64,000 nt of DNA from a virus: positions 26,169 to 90,168 of the IMG/VR virus record IMGVR_UViG_3300021600_000005; one strand, 5' to 3'. Made by a program: the position numbers and the translations under genes. The notes under the pieces were generated by a model. It did not search any database and was not told where the DNA came from. It saw only the letters and a list, made by a program, of their open reading frames with translations. The first letter of the stretch is position 1; each line of letters begins with the position of its first letter. Shown here piece by piece: positions 243 to 34,354 of the stretch.

Positions 243-470
243 ATGGAAATAATGATTTTAAAAAAAGAATATGAATGGGTTTTAAAAATATTAAACTCTT
301 CTATTAATTTATATCAAATAAAAACATCTGAAAATTTATTTAATGCGTTTATTAATAAATGGGATGATGAAATATCTGATGAAAAAAAAATAACTTTATT
401 TTATGAATTTAAAAAAAATAAGTTATCAAAATGTGATGAAATTGGTTTTTCAACCTTTAAAATTTATTAA
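243..470 (+). CDS. Small hypothetical protein
   Basis: A 75-residue Lys/Asn-rich protein. I chose the ATG at 243, two bases after the preceding stop, rather than an in-frame TTG at 180 that would overlap the upstream gene by 60 bases. It ends convergently against the minus-strand gene at 467-775, overlapping its stop by four bases. No family, signal peptide or membrane segment is apparent. Confidence 0.6.
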   Translation: MEIMILKKEYEWVLKILNSSINLYQIKTSENLFNAFINKWDDEISDEKKITLFYEFKKNKLSKCDEIGFSTFKIY

Positions 471-775
471 GGATAATTATTCATATGTAGGTATATAGTT
501 GAGGTAGTTATATAACCCTTCAAATTTAATGTTTCCTCCACCCAGTCTTTTGTAATCGACTGAAGTTCTTTATATTCAAGTGAAAACATGGATTCTAAAA
601 ATGACCAAATTGTATCATAATCAAAATAAAATTGTTTATTTATCCTATCTATCTGAGCAAGTCTTTTTTTATTTTTAACATAATAAGAACCAATAATTTC
701 AACATCAGAAAACATATCGTTTAACCAATCCTTAACCAATCTTGCCCTTTGCGTTTTTGTTATGTTAATTTTCAT
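467..775 (-). CDS. Five-member small-protein family, copy 1
   Basis: A 102-residue protein beginning MKINITKTQRARLVKDW, a start almost identical in the copies at 816-1121, 13763, 14115 and 14452. The middle holds a conserved FDYDTIWSFLES block and an ETLNLKG block; the last 10-15 residues differ in every copy. The element ATAAATA (781-787, i.e. TATTTAT on the coding strand) lies five bases upstream of the ATG, as for many late-type genes here. Function unknown. The basic amphipathic N-terminus could be a leader or a nucleic-acid contact; that is only inference. Confidence 0.8.
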   Translation of the reverse strand: MKINITKTQRARLVKDWLNDMFSDVEIIGSYYVKNKKRLAQIDRINKQFYFDYDTIWSFLESMFSLEYKELQSITKDWVEETLNLKGYITTSTIYLHMNNYP

Positions 776-815
776 TTAATATAAATACTTTAAAATTTAA
801 CGACTCTTTCACCGA

Positions 816-1121
816 TTATGTCCTCCATATAGTAGTATTGGGATTATAAGTAGTTTTATGGCCCTTCAAATTTAATGTTTCTTCCACCCAGTCTTCTGTA
901 ATAGCTTGCAGTTCCCTATATTCAAGTGAAAACACGGATTCTAAAAATAACCAAATTGTATTATAATCAAACCAAAACTCCTTATTTTTTTTATCATGGA
1001 AACCAATGTTTTTTTTATTTTTAACATAATAAGACCCAAGTATTTCAGCATCAGAAAACATATCGTTTAACCAATCCTTAACCAATCTTGCCCTTTGTGT
1101 TTTTGTTATGTTAATTTTCAT
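816..1121 (-). CDS. Five-member small-protein family, copy 2
   Basis: A 101-residue paralog of the protein at 467-775, sharing the first 24 residues almost exactly plus the FDYNTIW and ETLNLKG blocks, with a different C-terminal tail (HKTTYNPNTTIWRT). Downstream of its stop, before copy 1, the DNA again resembles the ETLNLKG coding segment (VEESLNFK in translation), a duplication seen behind the plus-strand copies too. It lies just downstream of the endolysin on the same strand (7 bases), so may share its late transcript. Confidence 0.8.
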   Translation of the reverse strand: MKINITKTQRARLVKDWLNDMFSDAEILGSYYVKNKKNIGFHDKKNKEFWFDYNTIWLFLESVFSLEYRELQAITEDWVEETLNLKGHKTTYNPNTTIWRT

Positions 1122-13762: not shown

Positions 13763-14077
13763 ATGAAAATTAACATAACTAAAACACAAAGAGCAAGATT
13801 GGTTAAGGATTGGTTAAACGATATGTTTTCTGGTGCTGAAATAAAAAATACTGATTATGGTAATTCTTATTATATTAAAAATGAAAAAAACCTTGCTTTT
13901 CAGAATAAAAAAAATAAAGATTTTCGGTTTGATTACGACCTAATTTGGTCATTTTTAGAATCCATTTTTTCACTTGAATATGAAGAACTGCAATCTATCA
14001 CAAAAGACTGGTTGGACGAGACATTAAATTTGAAGGGATATACAACATCTTATTTACGCAACTTATCTTGGACATAG
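13763..14077 (+). CDS. Five-member small-protein family, copy 3
   Basis: A 104-residue member starting MKINITKTQRARLVKDW, with FDYDLIWSFLES and DETLNLKGY blocks and the private tail TTSYLRNLSWT. TATTTATA (13751-13758) is four bases upstream of the ATG. Just before that element, and again after its stop, the DNA repeats the segment coding (W)xDETLNLK. First of three tandem copies leading to dnaK. Confidence 0.82.
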   Translation: MKINITKTQRARLVKDWLNDMFSGAEIKNTDYGNSYYIKNEKNLAFQNKKNKDFRFDYDLIWSFLESIFSLEYEELQSITKDWLDETLNLKGYTTSYLRNLSWT

Positions 14078-14114
14078 TTGGGCGAGACATTAAATTTGAA
14101 GGTATTTATATAAA

Positions 14115-14414
14115 ATGAAAATTAACATAACTAAAACACAAAGGGCAAGATTGGTTAAGGATTGGTTAAACGATATGTTTTCTGATACTGAAATAATTGA
14201 TTCTTATTATGTTAAAAATGGAAAAAAAATTGCTTTTCGGGAGAAAGAAAATAAAGAGTTTTGGTTTGATTATGACTTAATTTGGTCATTTTTAGAATCC
14301 ATGTTTTCACTTAAATATAAAGAACTGCAAGCTATTACAGAAGACTGGGTGGATGAAACATTAAATTTTAGGGGTTATACAACTTCGCCTCACATGTATC
14401 TCGAACAACGTTAG
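14115..14414 (+). CDS. Five-member small-protein family, copy 4
   Basis: A 99-residue member with the same start, an FDYDLIWSFLES block, DETLNFRGY and the private tail TTSPHMYLEQR. TATTTATA (14103-14110) is four bases upstream. Its stop is followed directly by GTGGATGAAACATTAAAT, another copy of its own ETLN-coding segment. Function unknown. Confidence 0.82.
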   Translation: MKINITKTQRARLVKDWLNDMFSDTEIIDSYYVKNGKKIAFREKENKEFWFDYDLIWSFLESMFSLKYKELQAITEDWVDETLNFRGYTTSPHMYLEQR

Positions 14415-14451
14415 GTGGATGAAACATTAAATTTGAAAGTAATTATATAAA

Positions 14452-14757
14452 ATGAAAATTAACATAACAAAAACACAAAGAGCAAGATTGGTTAAGGAAT
14501 GGTTAAACGATATGTTTTCTGATGTTGAAATTATTGGTTCTTTTGATAATAGAGGAGTGACTTATAGTAAAAACGGAGAAAATATTGCTTTCCAGGATAA
14601 AAAAGATAAAGACTTTTGGTTTGATTATGATATAATTTGGTTATTTTTAGAATCTATGTTTTCGCTCGAATATGAAGAACTGCAATCCATTACAGAAGAC
14701 TGGTTGGAAAAAACATTAAATTTGAAAGGTTATAGAACGTCAGGGGCTCCAGTGTAA
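14452..14757 (+). CDS. Five-member small-protein family, copy 5
   Basis: A 101-residue member with a slightly longer variable centre (IGSFDNRGVTYSKNGEN), FDYDIIWLFLES, KTLNLKGY and a short private tail RTSGAPV. The promoter-like element is TAATTATA (14440-14447), one base off the usual form. A further ETLNLK-like remnant follows at about 14770, before the terminator at 14811. Confidence 0.82.
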   Translation: MKINITKTQRARLVKEWLNDMFSDVEIIGSFDNRGVTYSKNGENIAFQDKKDKDFWFDYDIIWLFLESMFSLEYEELQSITEDWLEKTLNLKGYRTSGAPV

Positions 14758-14916: not shown

Positions 14917-16788
14917 ATGGGTAAAATTATTGGTATTGATTTAGGAACTACGAATTCGTGTGTTTCTGTAATGGAAAATGGGGAACCTGTTGTTATAACA
15001 AATAACGAAGGAAAAAGAACCACCCCCTCAATTGTTGGTTTTTTAAAAGATGGTGAAAGAAAAATTGGTGACCCGGCAAAAAGACAATCGGTTACAAATC
15101 CAACTAACACTGTTTATTCAATAAAAAGATTTATGGGGTTAAATTTTGACGAATCAAAATCAGAAATTAAAAAAGTACCTTATAAAGTTGTTAAAGGTGA
15201 TAATAATACAACTAGAGTTGATATTGACGGAAAATTATATTCTCCTCAAGAAATTTCATCAGTTATTTTACAAAAAATGAAACAAACTGCTGAAGATTAT
15301 TTAGGTCAAGAAGTGACTGAAGCGGTTATTACAGTTCCGGCTTATTTTAACGACGCTCAACGTCAATCAACAAAAGAAGCCGCAGAAATTGTTGGGTTAA
15401 AAGTTGCTAGAATTATTAATGAGCCTACAGCTGCCGCCTTAGCTTATGGTTTTGACAAAAAAGATAAAGATATGAAAATCGTTGTTTTTGATTGTGGTGG
15501 AGGAACTCACGATGTTTCAGTGTTACAATTAGGAGATGGTATTTTTGAAGTGTTATCTACTGACGGAAATACTCATTTAGGTGGAGATGATTTTGATGAC
15601 GTTATTATTGACTATTTAGTAAAAGAGTTTAAAAAAGATAATGGTATTGACCTTAAAAAAGATTCAATGGCGTTACAACGATTGAGAGAGGCGGCTGAAA
15701 AAGCTAAAATAGAACTTTCTTCGTCGATTTCAACTGAAATTAATTTACCTTACATTATGCCGGTAGACGGTATTCCTAAACATTTGGTTACTAATTTAAC
15801 AAGGTCAAAATTTGAACAATTAGTTAATGATTTAGTTAAAAAAACAATTAACCCATGTAAATCCGCTTTAGAAAAGGCTAAATTAAAAGTATCGGATATT
15901 GATGAAATTATTCTTGTTGGGGGGTCAACTCGTATTCCAGTTATTCAACAAGCGGTGAAAGACTTTTTTGGTAAAGAACCGTCAAAAAGTGTTAATCCTG
16001 ATGAAGTTGTTGCTCTTGGAGCCGCAATTCAAGGGGGAGTATTAGGTGGTGACGTTAAAGATGTTTTATTATTAGATGTTACTCCGTTATCCTTAGGTAT
16101 TGAAACTATGGGAGGTGTTTTTACTAAATTAATAGATTCAAATACAACTATTCCAACCAGACAGTCTCAAGTATTTTCGACAGCTGTTGATAATCAACCA
16201 AGTGTAGAAATACATGTTTTGCAAGGCGAACGTCCAATGTCATCCGATAACAAAACAATTGGAAGATTTCATTTAGATGGACTTCCTCCGGCTCGTAGAG
16301 GAACACCTCAAATTGAAGTGGTTTTTGATATTGACGCTAATGGTATTATAAATGTTTCAGCAATTGATAAAGCGACTGATAAAAAACAATCAATACGTAT
16401 TGAATCATCTACTGGTTTATCAAAAGAAGAAATTCAAAAAATGAAACAAGACGCTGAGTTAAACGCCGAATCAGACAAAAAGAAAAAAGAAGATGTTGAA
16501 ACGTTAAATACTGCGGACAACTTAATGTTTCAAACTGAGAAAACTTTAAATGAAAGTGAAACTAAAATTCCATCGGATAAAAAAACTGAAATTGATAACA
16601 CAATTAAAGAACTAAGACAACATCATTTAGAAAAAAATATTCCAATGGTTGAAAAATTAATGGGTGAACTTAATGAACAAATTCAAAAAGTTGTTAGTGT
16701 GATGTACGAATCAAAAGAACCTCAAGATAATTCCACAGAAAATTCTGGTGAAAACTTAACAGATGTTGAGTTTGAAAACGTTAAATAA
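14917..16788 (+). CDS. dnaK: Chaperone DnaK (Hsp70), full length
   Basis: A 623-residue Hsp70 with all domains: nucleotide-binding domain ([13 protein letters not shown] at the start, [25 protein letters not shown]), substrate-binding beta domain ([33 protein letters not shown]) and a C-terminal helical lid ([18 protein letters not shown]) ending in an acidic DVEFENVK tail. Compared with the usual phosphate-2 loop VFDLGGGTFDVS, it reads [12 protein letters not shown], with Leu to Cys and Phe to His. Codon use is like the phage, so the gene is not a very recent import. It has its own transcription unit between terminators. A virus-borne DnaK is uncommon; it may assist capsid or replication-protein folding. 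Confidence 0.97.
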
Positions 16789-25329: not shown

Positions 25330-25620
25330 AGTCAGGTGGCGGAATGGTAGACGCAGGTATCTCAAGATATGATTACAAGGTTCGATTCCTGTTCTGATTA
25401 CACAAGTCGAGTTGTGTTCGACTAATGTGCTCCCGCATGATAGAAGTGGTGTCACAACCACAGGGACCTGGGCTAACACTTGAATCTAAGTTGGTTGGTT
25501 GGTGTACCAGTAACAACAGTAAGTTAACACACAAGTCCTAACCTCCCATTTACGTGGGTTGCCGCTGAAGTCTCAAGAAACTATTCGGTATTAGGGACAG
25601 TCAGAAATGATTGGACGTTT
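25330..25620 (+). ncRNA. Candidate structured RNA headed by a tRNA-Leu-like element
   Basis: 25330-25400 resembles tRNA-Leu: acceptor AGTCAGG/TCTGATT plus discriminator A, the Leu-type D arm GCGGAATGGTAGACGC and the T-loop block GGTTCGATTCC. The anticodon arm does not close with a normal 7-base loop around CAA, and the T stem has an extra A, so a standard tRNA is doubtful. Downstream 25401-25620 has no ORF but folds locally: CACAAGTCGA/TCGACT(aa)TGTG, GTGGT/ACCAC, ACTT/AAGT and CCCA/TGGG hairpins. Possibly one longer RNA, an intron-bearing tRNA or a decayed tRNA plus spacer. Confidence 0.5.
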
Positions 25621-27433: not shown

Positions 27434-27740
27434 TTTGGTTTTTAATATAAAATGATTACATTTGTAGAACTTTGATAAAGTTTAATGTATTTATAAAACA
27501 CGTAAAATTTATTAAAAAAAGATTTGACAGTTTAAAAAAAATGTCTTATTTTTGTAAAAGAATTGATAGTTTTTAATGTATTTGTAAGACATAAAAAAAT
27601 ATTAAAAAAAGATTTGGTAAATCAAAAAACTTTACCTAACTTTGTAAAAGAATTGATAGTTTTTAATGTGTTTGTAAAACATAAAAAAAATTAAAAAAAG
27701 ATTTGGTAAATTAAAAAAAAATACCTAACTTTGTAAAAGA
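27434..27740 (+). promoter_or_regulatory. Four tandem promoters in an 89-90 bp repeat
   Basis: TTTG boxes at 27434, 27523, 27613 and 27702, each 19-20 bases before a TAnnTTTG box: TACATTTG 27457-27464, TATTTTTG 27547-27554, TAACTTTG 27637-27644, TAACTTTG 27726-27733. The DNA between is repetitive (TTGATAGTTTTTAATGTATT). All point into the structured RNA starting near 27740. The regular period shows duplication of a promoter unit and suggests very strong transcription. Confidence 0.85.
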
Positions 27741-29068
27741 TATCAGAAACGTCTGATTGTGTTCTTTGAAATATTATTATCCGTTTGACGGATTAAAATG
27801 AAACCTTCGGGTTAATTTTGAACTCCGTCAATAAATGATAATCGGCCGTGTATGGTCGTTAAATAAACCACGAAAGTGGGATAAAGTGAATTTACTTGTG
27901 TTAGTAAGTTTGCGGTTTCTTTAGAAACTCGAGTACACAAGTGGGATATCATCCGACCTTTATTACTGAGGGCGACGCTTTAAGGAAAGTGGTTGGATGG
28001 TTTGGGAATGTGGATTCTCAAACTGAGTTCGGAAGAACAATAAAAGTAACCCATAGGAATCAAGTAAAAAATGTGGCACCAACCATATAATTGCGGGTTC
28101 CAATGTTAAAGAGGACTTAAAACCGAAAGGTAAGATAAAGAACAAGTGGTGTTGTTATTATCCTTACATATCATCCGCCAAGATGTATGTTTGAAGTAAT
28201 CTTAAAATATTGAGATAGGGATATTTCACTGAGTAGAAAAGCATTTTGATTCTCAAAAGGAGTTGAAGCTTAAGATGGACCTCTACTTGGACGCATCCAC
28301 GACACATAAAACTTATACCAAATTTTAAGTAAAATTAAACTAAATATAAGCAAAAGTGTTCATCAGGTTTTGATGAAAGTCGCCTACATAGTCATGGGTT
28401 GTCCATGGCATACTAAGACCGCAAGTCGAAGTATATTTTTACCAAAAACCTCTAAGGAGTCGAATCCTGAGTTAACTCGCAAGGTTAAGGAGAGTGGAGT
28501 AGTAAAAGAGTAGTTGAAACCTTTAGGAGTGATTAGTCTAACTAATCGGCGATGAGACTTACCATTCAAAAGATGGTGGAAACAAAGGGAACTAATAATC
28601 CTTTAAAAGATTCTCACATATAGGTGTATTCTCAGCCTAAATTAAATATTGTAACAAAAATTGTTTATTAAATTAAACACTGGAGATGATACCTCATTAC
28701 AATACAAGTGGTTCCCAAGTTGTTTCCTTCATAACAACAGCAATGAACTAAAACTTGCAAAAATAAAATGAAAGGTTTTTTATTGGTGATTTAGTTAATT
28801 TATCACATTTTGGTACCACATCCAAAAAGATTAAAAAATAAACACTTTTTATGACTTCGGATGTCACAGGTTAGTTCAAACCAAAAAAACTCATGTCACT
28901 TTTGTTTAGAAAGTTTTGTTTTATAAACAGTCTTCTATTTTAGTGGTTAACTAAAAATGAAACAATTGAATAAACGGTTTTGTTAGAATTACCAAAAAAA
29001 AGTAACGTCACAAACTACTTTCGTATAATATCCAATTTACGTTCTAACAACTGGGTAAAGGCTAAATA
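27740..29068 (+). ncRNA. Giant structured non-coding RNA (GOLLD/ROOL-like class suspected)
   Basis: About 1.33 kb without a sensible ORF, between four tandem promoters and a terminator. It is GC-richer than the coding regions and full of stable hairpins: ATCCGT-TTG-ACGGAT, AACC-TTCG-GGTT, CCAC-GAAA-GTGG, GTTTC-TTTA-GAAAC nested in ACTTGTGT/ACACAAGT, TTTGGGAAT-GTGG-ATTCTCAAA, ACC-GAAA-GGT, TTCATCA/TGATGAA, GATTAGT-CTA-ACTAATC and long-range GGTTGG/CCAACC. The densest part is 27740-28650. A 3' part (28650-29068) has ACATCC/GGATGT and TTGTTAGAA/TTCTAACAA pairings. Size, ornateness, phage context and nearby tRNA/tmRNA suggest GOLLD or ROOL, but I cannot confirm the class. Confidence 0.75.
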
Positions 29069-29106
29069 GGGAGGTTTGATTAGCCGTCAGACCTCCCTTT
29101 CTTTTT
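29069..29106 (+). terminator. Terminator of the giant RNA
   Basis: Stem GGGAGGT (29069-29075)/ACCTCCC (29091-29097) followed by TTTCTTTTT. It defines the 3' end of the transcript started at the tandem promoters. Confidence 0.85.
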
Positions 29107-29165
29107 GAAAAATCTTTAATATTATTATGGTACCCTTGAGGTATAAAAACTAAAAATTTAATAGC

Positions 29166-29534: not shown

Positions 29535-29927
29535 TGGTGGAGGCGGAGGGCTCCGACTCCCTCGTCCAAGTAACCCCGATTAACCAGGACTACACGCTTA
29601 GTATAAAGTTTTCTAACTTTCCAAAAATACTTAATTCTCTTATTTTATAGTGGTTCGATTTATCAAGAACTTAACTTCCACTTGTCTCTTTTTGGGTAGA
29701 GTCCACACCATTGCAAGGACTTCTGTTCCTAGGTTATATGTCCGCCGACCCGAAACTGTTACTTAATCTAATTAAGCTACAGCAACTTCCTCAGTACGGA
29801 TTAATCCAACTGATGAAAGTTTGTTGATGATGTTATCACCTGAAAAGTAAACCAGTTTTTACAAGGTTAGTTTAGCCTCGACGTGCCCCAATTAACAGAA
29901 AAAACCTGTCAAATCCAAAGCGCCCCC
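29535..29927 (-). ncRNA. ssrA: Transfer-messenger RNA (tmRNA)
   Basis: A complete one-piece tmRNA. The 5' end GGGGGCG (29927-29921) pairs over seven bases with CGCCTCC before the encoded ACCA (29535). TTTGGATTTGACAGG follows the 5' end, as in bacterial tmRNAs; AAGCGTGTAGTCC and GGACGAGGG mark the 3' tRNA-like half. The tag frame 29840-29772 reads GDNIINKLSSVGLIRTEEVA then VA and stop (22 residues, assuming resumption at GGT). The T loop reads AGTCGGAG instead of a TTCRANY-type loop. It rescues stalled ribosomes and tags products for proteolysis. Own promoter at 29956-29986. Confidence 0.93.
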
Positions 29928-31457: not shown

Positions 31458-32291
31458 ATGGAAAGAAATTATGAATTATTAAAAAGTGTATTATCTGTAG
31501 CAACTCACACTTATCAGGAAGAATTAATGATTAATTTTATTGAAAATTGGTTAGTTGAAAATAATCTACCATATTTTGTTGATGATATGGGGAATATTTA
31601 TGTAACAAAACAAACTGACCAAAATATTAAATTTTTTCCATGTGTTGTCTCTCATACAGATACTGTACATAATATCGACACCATTAACATTCGAGAGACT
31701 ATATTACCAAACACTCAAAATATAATGAAACCATCTTTAAATGCCTTTAATAACGAAGGTAAACCAACTGGGATTGGCGGGGATGATAAATGTGGAGTTT
31801 ACGCTTGTTTAGAATTACTTAAAGAATTACCTAATTTAAAGGCGGCGTTTTTTGTTTCAGAAGAAACTGGGTGTTATGGTTCAAGGTCAGCAAATAAATC
31901 ATTTTTTGAAAATGTTGGTTATGCTATACAGTTTGACGCTCCTGGTAATAGAATGATTACTGAAATCTCTATGGGTACTAGGTTATTTGAACTAAATGGA
32001 GACTTTCATAAAATAACAAGTAATATTTTAAATGAAGAATTTAACGGTACTGGAGAATATGGTTCACATCCATATACCGATATATATGCTTTAAAACATT
32101 TATTTGATTTTTCATGTATTAACATCTCTATTGGGTATTATAGATACCATACAAGAAATGAGTACGTGGTTATTGAAGATGTTTATAACGGTATTAATGT
32201 TGGAAAAAAAATAATTGAAGGACTGTCGTATAAAAAATACAAATATTTACCAGATTCAAATTATTTATTTAATACAAAAAAACAGTTTTAA
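31458..32291 (+). CDS. M20/M42-type metallo-aminopeptidase-like protein
   Basis: A 277-residue protein with the dinuclear-zinc landmarks of the family: VVSHTDTVHN (His and Asp ligands), GIGGDDKCGVY (bridging Asp), VSEETGCYGS (catalytic EE), and a C-terminal RYHTRNEYVVIED (His ligand). The lid insertion is short, so it is smaller than the usual 340-400. It should release amino acids from peptides, perhaps recycling host protein. Converges with the Clp gene, overlapping by four bases. Confidence 0.82.
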   Translation: MERNYELLKSVLSVATHTYQEELMINFIENWLVENNLPYFVDDMGNIYVTKQTDQNIKFFPCVVSHTDTVHNIDTINIRETILPNTQNIMKPSLNAFNNEGKPTGIGGDDKCGVYACLELLKELPNLKAAFFVSEETGCYGSRSANKSFFENVGYAIQFDAPGNRMITEISMGTRLFELNGDFHKITSNILNEEFNGTGEYGSHPYTDIYALKHLFDFSCINISIGYYRYHTRNEYVVIEDVYNGINVGKKIIEGLSYKKYKYLPDSNYLFNTKKQF

Positions 32292-34354
32292 TCAATCTTT
32301 TTTTTCTTTCTTGTTTTTTTTGGTTTTTCTTCAATTTCATTTTGATTATCAGGCAAAAGTATTTTAACCAAGTTGTTTTCTGAAGTCAAAGAATAGTTAC
32401 CATTTTCGATAATGTTACCTTTAATAATTTCTTCAGATATAAAATCTTCTATTTTATCCTGAATAGCTCTTTTTATTGGTCTTGCACCATATGTTTCATC
32501 AAACCCAACTTCAGAAATTAAATTTAAGACTGTTTCATCAAAAGTTATATTATAATTTAAACCAATTAACCTTTTAGATAGAACATCCAATTCTATAGTT
32601 ACTATTTTTTTAATATCTTCTTTAACCAACGCGTTAAAAATTACTATTTCATCAACTCTATTTAAAAATTCAGGAGAAAAAAAGTTTTTAAGTTCTTTTT
32701 TTAACACATCTCTACGATGTTCTTCTTCAGCATATGAATTATTAATAGTTTTAAATCCAACTCCAGTTCCAAAATCTTGTAATTTTTTTGAACCAATATT
32801 AGAGGTCATAATGATTACACAATTTTTAAAATTAATTTTTTTACCTAAACTATCCGTTAAATGTCCTTCATCTAGTACTTGAAGTAACGTTGAAAAAATA
32901 TCTTTATGGGCTTTTTCAACCTCATCAAATAAAATTACAGAATACGGTCTATTTTTAACTTGTTCAGTTAATTGTCCTCCATCTTCATAACCAACATACC
33001 CACTAGGAGCTCCAATTAATCTTGATATAGTGTGTTTTTCTTGATATTCTGACATATCCACACGAATTAAATTATCTTCACTACCAAACATTTCTTTTGC
33101 TAATTTTTTGGCCAATAACGTTTTACCAACACCTGTTGACCCGAGAAAAATAAAAGAACCAATTGGTTTATTAGGGTCTTTTATACCTAACCTATTTCTT
33201 CTAATTGATTTTGCAACTTTTAATACCGCTTCTTCCTGACCAATAACTTTACCAGATAAATTATCTGCCAATTTTGATAATAAAACTGTTTCGTCAAAAT
33301 TTAATTTTGTAATTGGAATTTTAGTCATATTTGATACGACCTCATAAACCAAGTCAATTGTGATTATTTTCTTTTTTATTAAGAGTTCTTCTTCAAATTT
33401 TTTCTTTTCAGAACTTAATTTATCTAAAATTTTCTTTTCTTTATCTCTAAGATTTGCGGCCTCTTCATAGTTTTGTTTTTTAACAACATCTATTTTTTGT
33501 TGTTTAATTTTTTGCGCCTGTTCTTTCAAATCGTCAATAACAAATGGCATTTTAACTTCAACCTGACTACGAGCTCCAACTTCATCAATAATATCAAATG
33601 CTTTATCTGGGAATTCTCTGTCTGTAATATATCTTTCAGACAAATCAACACATAACGATAAAACTTCATCACTATAGAGTACTTTATGAAAAGTTTCATA
33701 TTTATCCTTAACATTTTTAAGGATTTCTAAGGTTTCTTTTTTACTTGTTGGGTCAATTATTACTTTTTGAAAACGTCTTTCTAATGCTCCATCTTTTTCA
33801 AAGTTTTTTCTATACTCATCTAATGTTGTTGCTCCAACACATTGAATTTCACCTCTAGCTAACGCTGGTTTAAATATATTAGAAGCGTCTAAAGAACCTG
33901 AAGAATTACCGGCTCCAACGATTGTGTGTATTTCATCAATAAAAACAATAATATTAGATTGAGACTGAAGTTCATCTATAATAACTTTCATTCTTTCTTC
34001 AAATTGACCTCTGTATTTAGTTCCGGCAACAATTGAGGTCATATCTAATGAAACTACTCTTTTATCCGCTAAATTTCTTGGACAATCACCATTATATATT
34101 TTTATTGCTAACCCTTCAATAATAGCCGTTTTTCCACTTCCTGGAGCCCCAATAATAATTGGGTTATTTTTTTTACGTCTAGATAAAATTTGAGCAATTC
34201 TCATTATTTCACGTTCACGTCCAATTACCGGGTCAAGTTTACCTTCCTCCGCCAATTTTATTAAATCTCTACTAAAGTTATCTAAAACTGGTGTTGGGGA
34301 GTCAGAATCTTTTTTTGGTTTTTGTTTACCATCATTTTCTACAGAATCGGTCAT
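32288..34354 (-). CDS. ClpC/ClpA-like AAA+ unfoldase
   Basis: A 688-residue protein with two AAA+ modules. D1: Walker A GAPGSGKTAI, Walker B VFIDEIHT. D2: GSTGVGKTLLAKKLA, GAPSGYVGYEDGGQL, ILFDEVEKAH, sensor EFLNRVDEI. Between them is a UVR-like coiled segment (KKQNYEEAANLRDKEKK), as in ClpC. The usual N-terminal adaptor domain is missing; it begins with about 20 charged residues and ANFSRDLIKL-like entry. FGTGVGFKT sits where the ClpP-docking loop lies in ClpC, so it could recruit host ClpP. A basic KKTRKKKK tail follows. Confidence 0.9.
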   Translation of the reverse strand: MTDSVENDGKQKPKKDSDSPTPVLDNFSRDLIKLAEEGKLDPVIGREREIMRIAQILSRRKKNNPIIIGAPGSGKTAIIEGLAIKIYNGDCPRNLADKRVVSLDMTSIVAGTKYRGQFEERMKVIIDELQSQSNIIVFIDEIHTIVGAGNSSGSLDASNIFKPALARGEIQCVGATTLDEYRKNFEKDGALERRFQKVIIDPTSKKETLEILKNVKDKYETFHKVLYSDEVLSLCVDLSERYITDREFPDKAFDIIDEVGARSQVEVKMPFVIDDLKEQAQKIKQQKIDVVKKQNYEEAANLRDKEKKILDKLSSEKKKFEEELLIKKKIITIDLVYEVVSNMTKIPITKLNFDETVLLSKLADNLSGKVIGQEEAVLKVAKSIRRNRLGIKDPNKPIGSFIFLGSTGVGKTLLAKKLAKEMFGSEDNLIRVDMSEYQEKHTISRLIGAPSGYVGYEDGGQLTEQVKNRPYSVILFDEVEKAHKDIFSTLLQVLDEGHLTDSLGKKINFKNCVIIMTSNIGSKKLQDFGTGVGFKTINNSYAEEEHRRDVLKKELKNFFSPEFLNRVDEIVIFNALVKEDIKKIVTIELDVLSKRLIGLNYNITFDETVLNLISEVGFDETYGARPIKRAIQDKIEDFISEEIIKGNIIENGNYSLTSENNLVKILLPDNQNEIEEKPKKTRKKKKID

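Follow-up and report, generated by a model that had tools for sequence, protein, structure and literature searches.

The 64,000-nt stretch of viral DNA analysed here (the window, bases 26169-90168 within a 90,168-base IMG/VR virus record) very probably carries a GOLLD gene, belonging to a T4-like phage and co-transcribed with a second, uncatalogued structured RNA, which we call the trailer. The Rfam match at 28229-28638, together with the 5' domain before it, makes up a full-length GOLLD gene, an RNA of already known identity. The new part is the 3' third, seen by comparison with relatives to be a conserved folded RNA outside Rfam and outside the named phages searched. GOLLD identity, covarying 5' domain, promoters, terminator, trailer and a variable slot are read from the sequence; we infer expression, cutting, cage assembly and function. 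The main features are the following.

27740..28228, plus strand: GOLLD 5' domain, from covariation in 23 relatives
28229..28638, plus strand: GOLLD 3' domain, Rfam RF02032, 306.8 bits, model 1-416
28291..28352, plus strand: variable linker within the GOLLD 3' domain; in relatives these columns hold about 49-70 nt
28461..28462, plus strand: self-complementary CG in the L21a-matched loop, from position counting
28647..28704, plus strand: slot closed by an 8-bp stem, TATTGTAA/TTACAATA; no tRNA recognised
28705..29107, plus strand: trailer, conserved structured RNA domain, from a held-out profile HMM, without Rfam family
29068..29105, plus strand: intrinsic terminator, stem 29068-29098
29535..29927, minus strand: phage tmRNA in convergent orientation to the GOLLD unit, 98.6 bits

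When the whole window was scanned against Rfam, four matches were obtained: GOLLD, a minus-strand tmRNA and two tRNAs, the second of which, at 25330, scores near the cut-off. The GOLLD match (RF02032, 28229-28638, plus strand) reaches 306.8 bits (E 7.2e-87) against a gathering cut-off of 150 bits and covers model positions 1-416 of 416. ROOL, HEARO and OLE gave no match, ROOL neither at the gathering threshold in the window nor down to E<=5 over 27700-29150. A sequence-only reading of this DNA had proposed GOLLD or ROOL, perhaps a divergent member, and suggested a search with these four models; GOLLD was the right choice and the only one reported. Its statement that the region lacks an ORF also holds, the longest within 27740-29106 being at most 61 aa.

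The Rfam model spans only the conserved 3' half of GOLLD. Full-length homologues were collected by scanning for the 3' end of GOLLD (63 contigs) and among terminase relatives, where GOLLD was found in 13 of 48 records and in 5 of the 10 records of at least 70 kb. An alignment of 23 non-redundant sequences over 27734-28258 gave a 5'-domain consensus fold of 114 pairs, 77 of which change on both sides, with 96.6% of cells paired; none of 500 shuffles reached any of these measures, and slid partners paired in just 37-42%. Bases 27740-28640 reach a folding energy of -240.7 kcal/mol (z = -3.98 relative to 20 shuffles), which, with the strong covariation, bears out the earlier reading's view of the densest 900 nt or so as structured. 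The Rfam match and the covarying 5' half together identify the RNA as GOLLD, and the variable and highly structured stretch of about 400 nt that this family carries as a separate 5' domain is present at 27740-28228. Its GAAA hairpin loop (27872-27875) is invariant among the aligned relatives and would correspond to the conserved L11a loop of the solved GOLLD structure (PMC12286853), with which it is in keeping.

The setting is also that of GOLLD, a phage or prophage near tRNA genes: the phage is T4-like and tRNA-Met adjoins GOLLD in relatives, with only a probable remnant beside this copy. Expression rising towards lysis would be expected of a GOLLD RNA. We know of no function for the hollow GOLLD cages, the structure of which has been solved. 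With env-38 GOLLD (RF02032; PMC12286853) the present gene shares the 3' domain in full, a structured 5' domain that stands apart from it, a total of about 900 nt, the variable linker, the invariant 5'-domain GAAA loop, a self-complementary L21a-like loop, the phage location and tRNA-Met neighbours. Unlike env-38, it has tandem Bacteroidota-type promoters and, downstream, a conserved RNA module with a slot for tRNA or endonuclease, and its relatives include an AU form of L21a besides GC and CG, the two published ones. Mycobacterial GOLLD in tRNA arrays (PMC6582537) likewise has adjacent tRNA genes, a pseudo-tRNA and a homing-type endonuclease nearby; in that bacterial chromosome, however, the GOLLD gene itself contains the pseudo-tRNA, whereas in the T4-like phage setting described here a tRNA or its remnant sits between GOLLD and a second RNA module. 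ROOL is similarly a large cage-forming phage RNA near tRNAs, but it has no Rfam match here and its sequence and fold are unrelated to GOLLD.

The env-38 GOLLD was seen by cryo-EM as a 14-mer, a self-assembled nanocage, in which L21a pairs with its own copy on another chain (PMC12286853). This symmetric contact, B8, was published with a dinucleotide switching between GC and CG (PMC12286853). With the loop located by position counting from the published residue numbers, all 32 GOLLD copies carried a self-complementary dinucleotide, as B8 requires (GC in 18, CG in 8 and AU in 6, counts which rest on few independent changes). AU would be a third allowed palindromic form of the contact. The kissing contact B7 of the published structure did not emerge from a column-covariation scan along the full GOLLD.

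Upstream of GOLLD, the motif scan and the repeat analysis gave the following features.

27435..27464, plus strand: Bacteroidota-type promoter 1 (TTG N19 TACATTTG)
27524..27554, plus strand: Bacteroidota-type promoter 2 (TTG N20 TATTTTTG)
27614..27644, plus strand: Bacteroidota-type promoter 3 (TTG N20 TAACTTTG)
27703..27733, plus strand: Bacteroidota-type promoter 4, proximal, at the same position in relatives
27481..27740, plus strand: tandem array, 2.9 copies of a 90-bp unit

The house-keeping promoter of Bacteroidota consists of TTTG near -33 and TAnnTTTG at -7 (PMC7366714). Four TTG-N19/20-TAnnTTTG sites lie inside 300 bp upstream of GOLLD (27435-27733), for a chance expectation of about 3 sites per spacing in the entire window, both strands, and promoters 2-4 each sit on one copy of the 90-bp repeat. 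Among the core-set relatives with a readable upstream region, all have a TTG-N18/19-TAnnTTTG promoter with its -7 motif 836-977 nt ahead of the GOLLD 3' end; each has 1-5 at that place, mostly two to five in tandem. Transcription is therefore probably driven by the four tandem promoters at 27435-27733, and from proximal promoter 4 we infer a start near 27740. The tandem promoters announced by the earlier reading are real, but of Bacteroidota type: sigma-70 promoters were considered for the unit and rejected, the scan showing no excess, although promoter 2 is also the top sigma-70-like match. The clear terminator it described was confirmed (stem 29068-29098, hairpin z = -4.66), the unit ending at 29098. 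Promoter-repeat units as ahead of GOLLD also occur among tRNA genes in two other loci (L053 3615-4428, L046 1928-1986), which suggests that structural RNAs of these phages share a promoter cassette.

The promoter type suggests transcription by the host polymerase. The terminase, portal and capsid proteins of the virus are T4-like, and in a terminase comparison the named isolates that come nearest are Flavobacterium phages, with 27% identity. Given the promoter type and this distant similarity, the virus is probably a T4-like phage of a Bacteroidota host. A search for relatives of the neighbouring 466-aa protein found none.

The tmRNA that had been noticed nearby is real. It was missed by ARAGORN, encodes a readable tag, GDNIINKLSSVGLIRTEEVAVA, followed by a stop, and has its own Bacteroidota-type promoter-like site (29985-29956, minus strand). 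A convergent tmRNA also lies downstream of GOLLD in L008, L026, L146, L151 and L153. Elsewhere in the window, 32288-34354 (minus strand) and 14917-16788 encode a ClpA/ClpB-type AAA ATPase (Pfam) and a DnaK-like chaperone (ORF reading), and paralogous ORFs of about 100 aa starting MKINITKTQRARLVKDWLNDMF occur at two places, 467-1121 (minus strand) and 13763-14757, the latter cluster having a 337-bp repeat unit.

GOLLD ends at 28638. The 1.36 kb that had been read as a single RNA is not one GOLLD: a conserved domain of its own, without Rfam family, occupies 28705-29107. A profile HMM built without the copies of the window (locus L001) and of L028 found 28705-29105 at E 1.7e-7; with L028 included, the window copy was found at E 1.5e-18. 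Upstream of the trailer, GOLLD was detected in 49 of 51 cases, the exceptions being L064 and L078, which begin at contig ends, and pattern scans aimed at the trailer itself again gave loci with GOLLD upstream. The distance is 11-91 nt, and 640 nt in four near-identical endonuclease contigs. Over about 400 nt, the order of the trailer is conserved across 15 non-redundant lineages, the window copy being 45-52% identical to its relatives. Against 4227 Rfam models the trailers of the window, L045 and L145 gave chance-level hits only; the other loci searched gave no gathering-level Rfam hit, and the named phage collection gave no hit. On a GOLLD tree of 32 sequences, the trailer is present in 16, and its distribution needs five changes, at least three of them forced by well-supported branches. 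Such repeated gain or loss indicates a separate module, dispensable to GOLLD.

Since the trailer sequences are too divergent, MAFFT plus RNAalifold yielded only 24 pairs, and this approach was replaced by arm tests, in which pairing of arms within a sequence is compared with that of arms from different sequences. Several helices had to be placed by hand in the window copy because of its identity of only about 50% to relatives.

28707..28755, plus strand: helix P1, AGUGGUUC (28707-28714) with GAACU (28745-28749), from the arm test
28937..28958, plus strand: proposed helix HE, AUUUUAGU (28937-28944) / ACUAAAAAU (28950-28958), arms hand-placed, covariation in relatives
29000..29020, plus strand: hairpin HC, AAGUA (29000-29004) / UACUU (29016-29020), with a conserved UCACNAA loop
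29022..29041, plus strand: hairpin HD, CGUA (29022-29025) / UACG (29038-29041), from the window-pair test, arms hand-placed
29060..29085, plus strand: GGCUAA (29060-29065) / UUAGCC (29080-29085), read from sequence

The difference between the two kinds of pairing averaged -0.32 kcal/mol (sd 0.67) in 1710 window pairs. HE stood out as the best helix with -4.33 kcal/mol, 6 sd beyond this mean; among its arms in relatives are GACAUUUU/AAAAUGUC, CCCUUU/AAAGGG, GGUUUUUU/AAAAAACC and GUGUUU/AAACAC. Permutation p values were 0.0002 for HC and P1, 0.001 for HA and 0.009 for HD, against a background in which 6.7% of random trailer window pairs, some overlapping the described helices, have p <= 0.0025. 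HD was not significant in a first test (p 0.22), nor was HB in anchored windows (p 0.10). A loop-to-downstream pairing, seen in relatives as GGUAU/AUACC, AGUAU/AUACU, ACUAU/AUAGU and UUUGU/ACAAA, is likely a pseudoknot. GGCUAA/UUAGCC, interleaved with the terminator stem, is also a possible pseudoknot, retained in most relatives whose slot holds a tRNA or remnant. The structure claimed earlier for the 3' 400 nt is thus upheld by comparison with relatives, but not by the folding energy of this copy, which is no more stable than shuffles (z = -0.78).

The slot between the two RNAs changes its content. It holds tRNA-Met in L008, L009, L010, L026, L056 and others, a diverged tRNA-Met (30.5 bits) in L045, an element not recognised as tRNA in the window and L028, and nothing in L145, L146, L151, L153, L006 and L029. 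In L012 and near-identical contigs it is occupied by an endonuclease gene; at L012 1522-2058 (minus strand) this SegE-like GIY-YIG enzyme with a NUMOD3 motif lies exactly between GOLLD and trailer. Neither Rfam RF00005 nor ARAGORN finds a tRNA in the window's slot (28647-28704), whereas the tRNAs of relatives do pass. With its sequence completely changed, it keeps the 8-bp acceptor-like stem and a T-arm-like hairpin, and is a probable remnant of the tRNA-Met found there in relatives. Three trailer-less loci have a tRNA-Met upstream of GOLLD, near the promoters (L031 6179-6252, minus strand; L058 4608-4681; L059 3391-3464).

In the mechanism that we propose, host RNA polymerase would read the unit from its four stacked promoters, possibly from early infection onward, giving a high dosage. 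The GOLLD part would fold and self-assemble into a 14-chain nanocage as its homologue env-38 does. Where the slot holds tRNA-Met, RNase P and 3' tRNA processing would cut GOLLD, tRNA and trailer apart in the precursor; in the window's phage GOLLD and trailer may remain joined, since the tRNA has decayed. As the trailer is gained and lost in evolution and can be parted from GOLLD by an endonuclease gene, it is probably a separate RNA and not a part of the cage. Tentatively, it may represent a new class of structured phage RNA, some 400 nt long and pseudoknotted, acting together with GOLLD, for instance as cage cargo, tether or adaptor, made from the same precursor and released in some phages by excision of tRNA-Met.

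That the entire 1.36 kb is instead one integral RNA, the trailer being a third domain that decorates or fills the GOLLD particle, seems unlikely. In its favour, the trailer nearly always follows GOLLD by 11-91 nt on the same strand with no terminator seen between them, several clades have no intervening tRNA, and in the window this tRNA has decayed. However, about half of the relatives in the tree have GOLLD without trailer, including L148 and L150, near neighbours of trailer-bearing L146; a GIY-YIG gene splits the two in L012, L030, L040 and L044; and the intact tRNA-Met elsewhere implies processing. Somewhat less probable still is a trailer that is a mere 3' untranslated or regulatory tail (terminator region, stability element) with no function of its own. 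Its fast divergence, the weak folding of the window copy and its repeated loss would fit a tail, but an order kept over 15 lineages, helices with compensating changes and a probable pseudoknot would not, and GOLLD of trailer-less relatives ends with a short terminator, so that a tail is not needed for termination.

The window's slot might also be a deliberate tRNA-like signal, kept for trimming of the GOLLD 3' end by RNase P, for which MALAT1-mascRNA is a precedent. The stem and hairpin persisting through complete sequence change, and the 7-bp stem with one arm kept in L028, speak for it; yet neither element folds better than shuffled sequence (z -0.74 for the window and -1.09 for L028), no Rfam tRNA score is obtained and several clades lack the element altogether, which makes this improbable. 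As for a different ornate RNA (ROOL, HEARO, OLE) or a coding region misread as RNA, only the phage setting and size would agree with it, and we ruled it out as next to inconceivable from the sole GOLLD match, the short ORFs and the covariation of the 5' domain. We thus retain a GOLLD gene with a distinct partner RNA. Its company of tRNA-Met and tmRNA and the published ribosome pull-down (PMC12286853) allow a guess, a doubtful one, at a role in tRNA or ribosome handling during phage takeover.

In metagenomes, GOLLD recurs as a gene in an abundant group of T4-like phages, which offers natural pairs with and without trailer (L146 against L148 and L150) for comparison. The conserved partner RNA and the alternating slot provide a handle on the function of the GOLLD cage and name a candidate partner for it.
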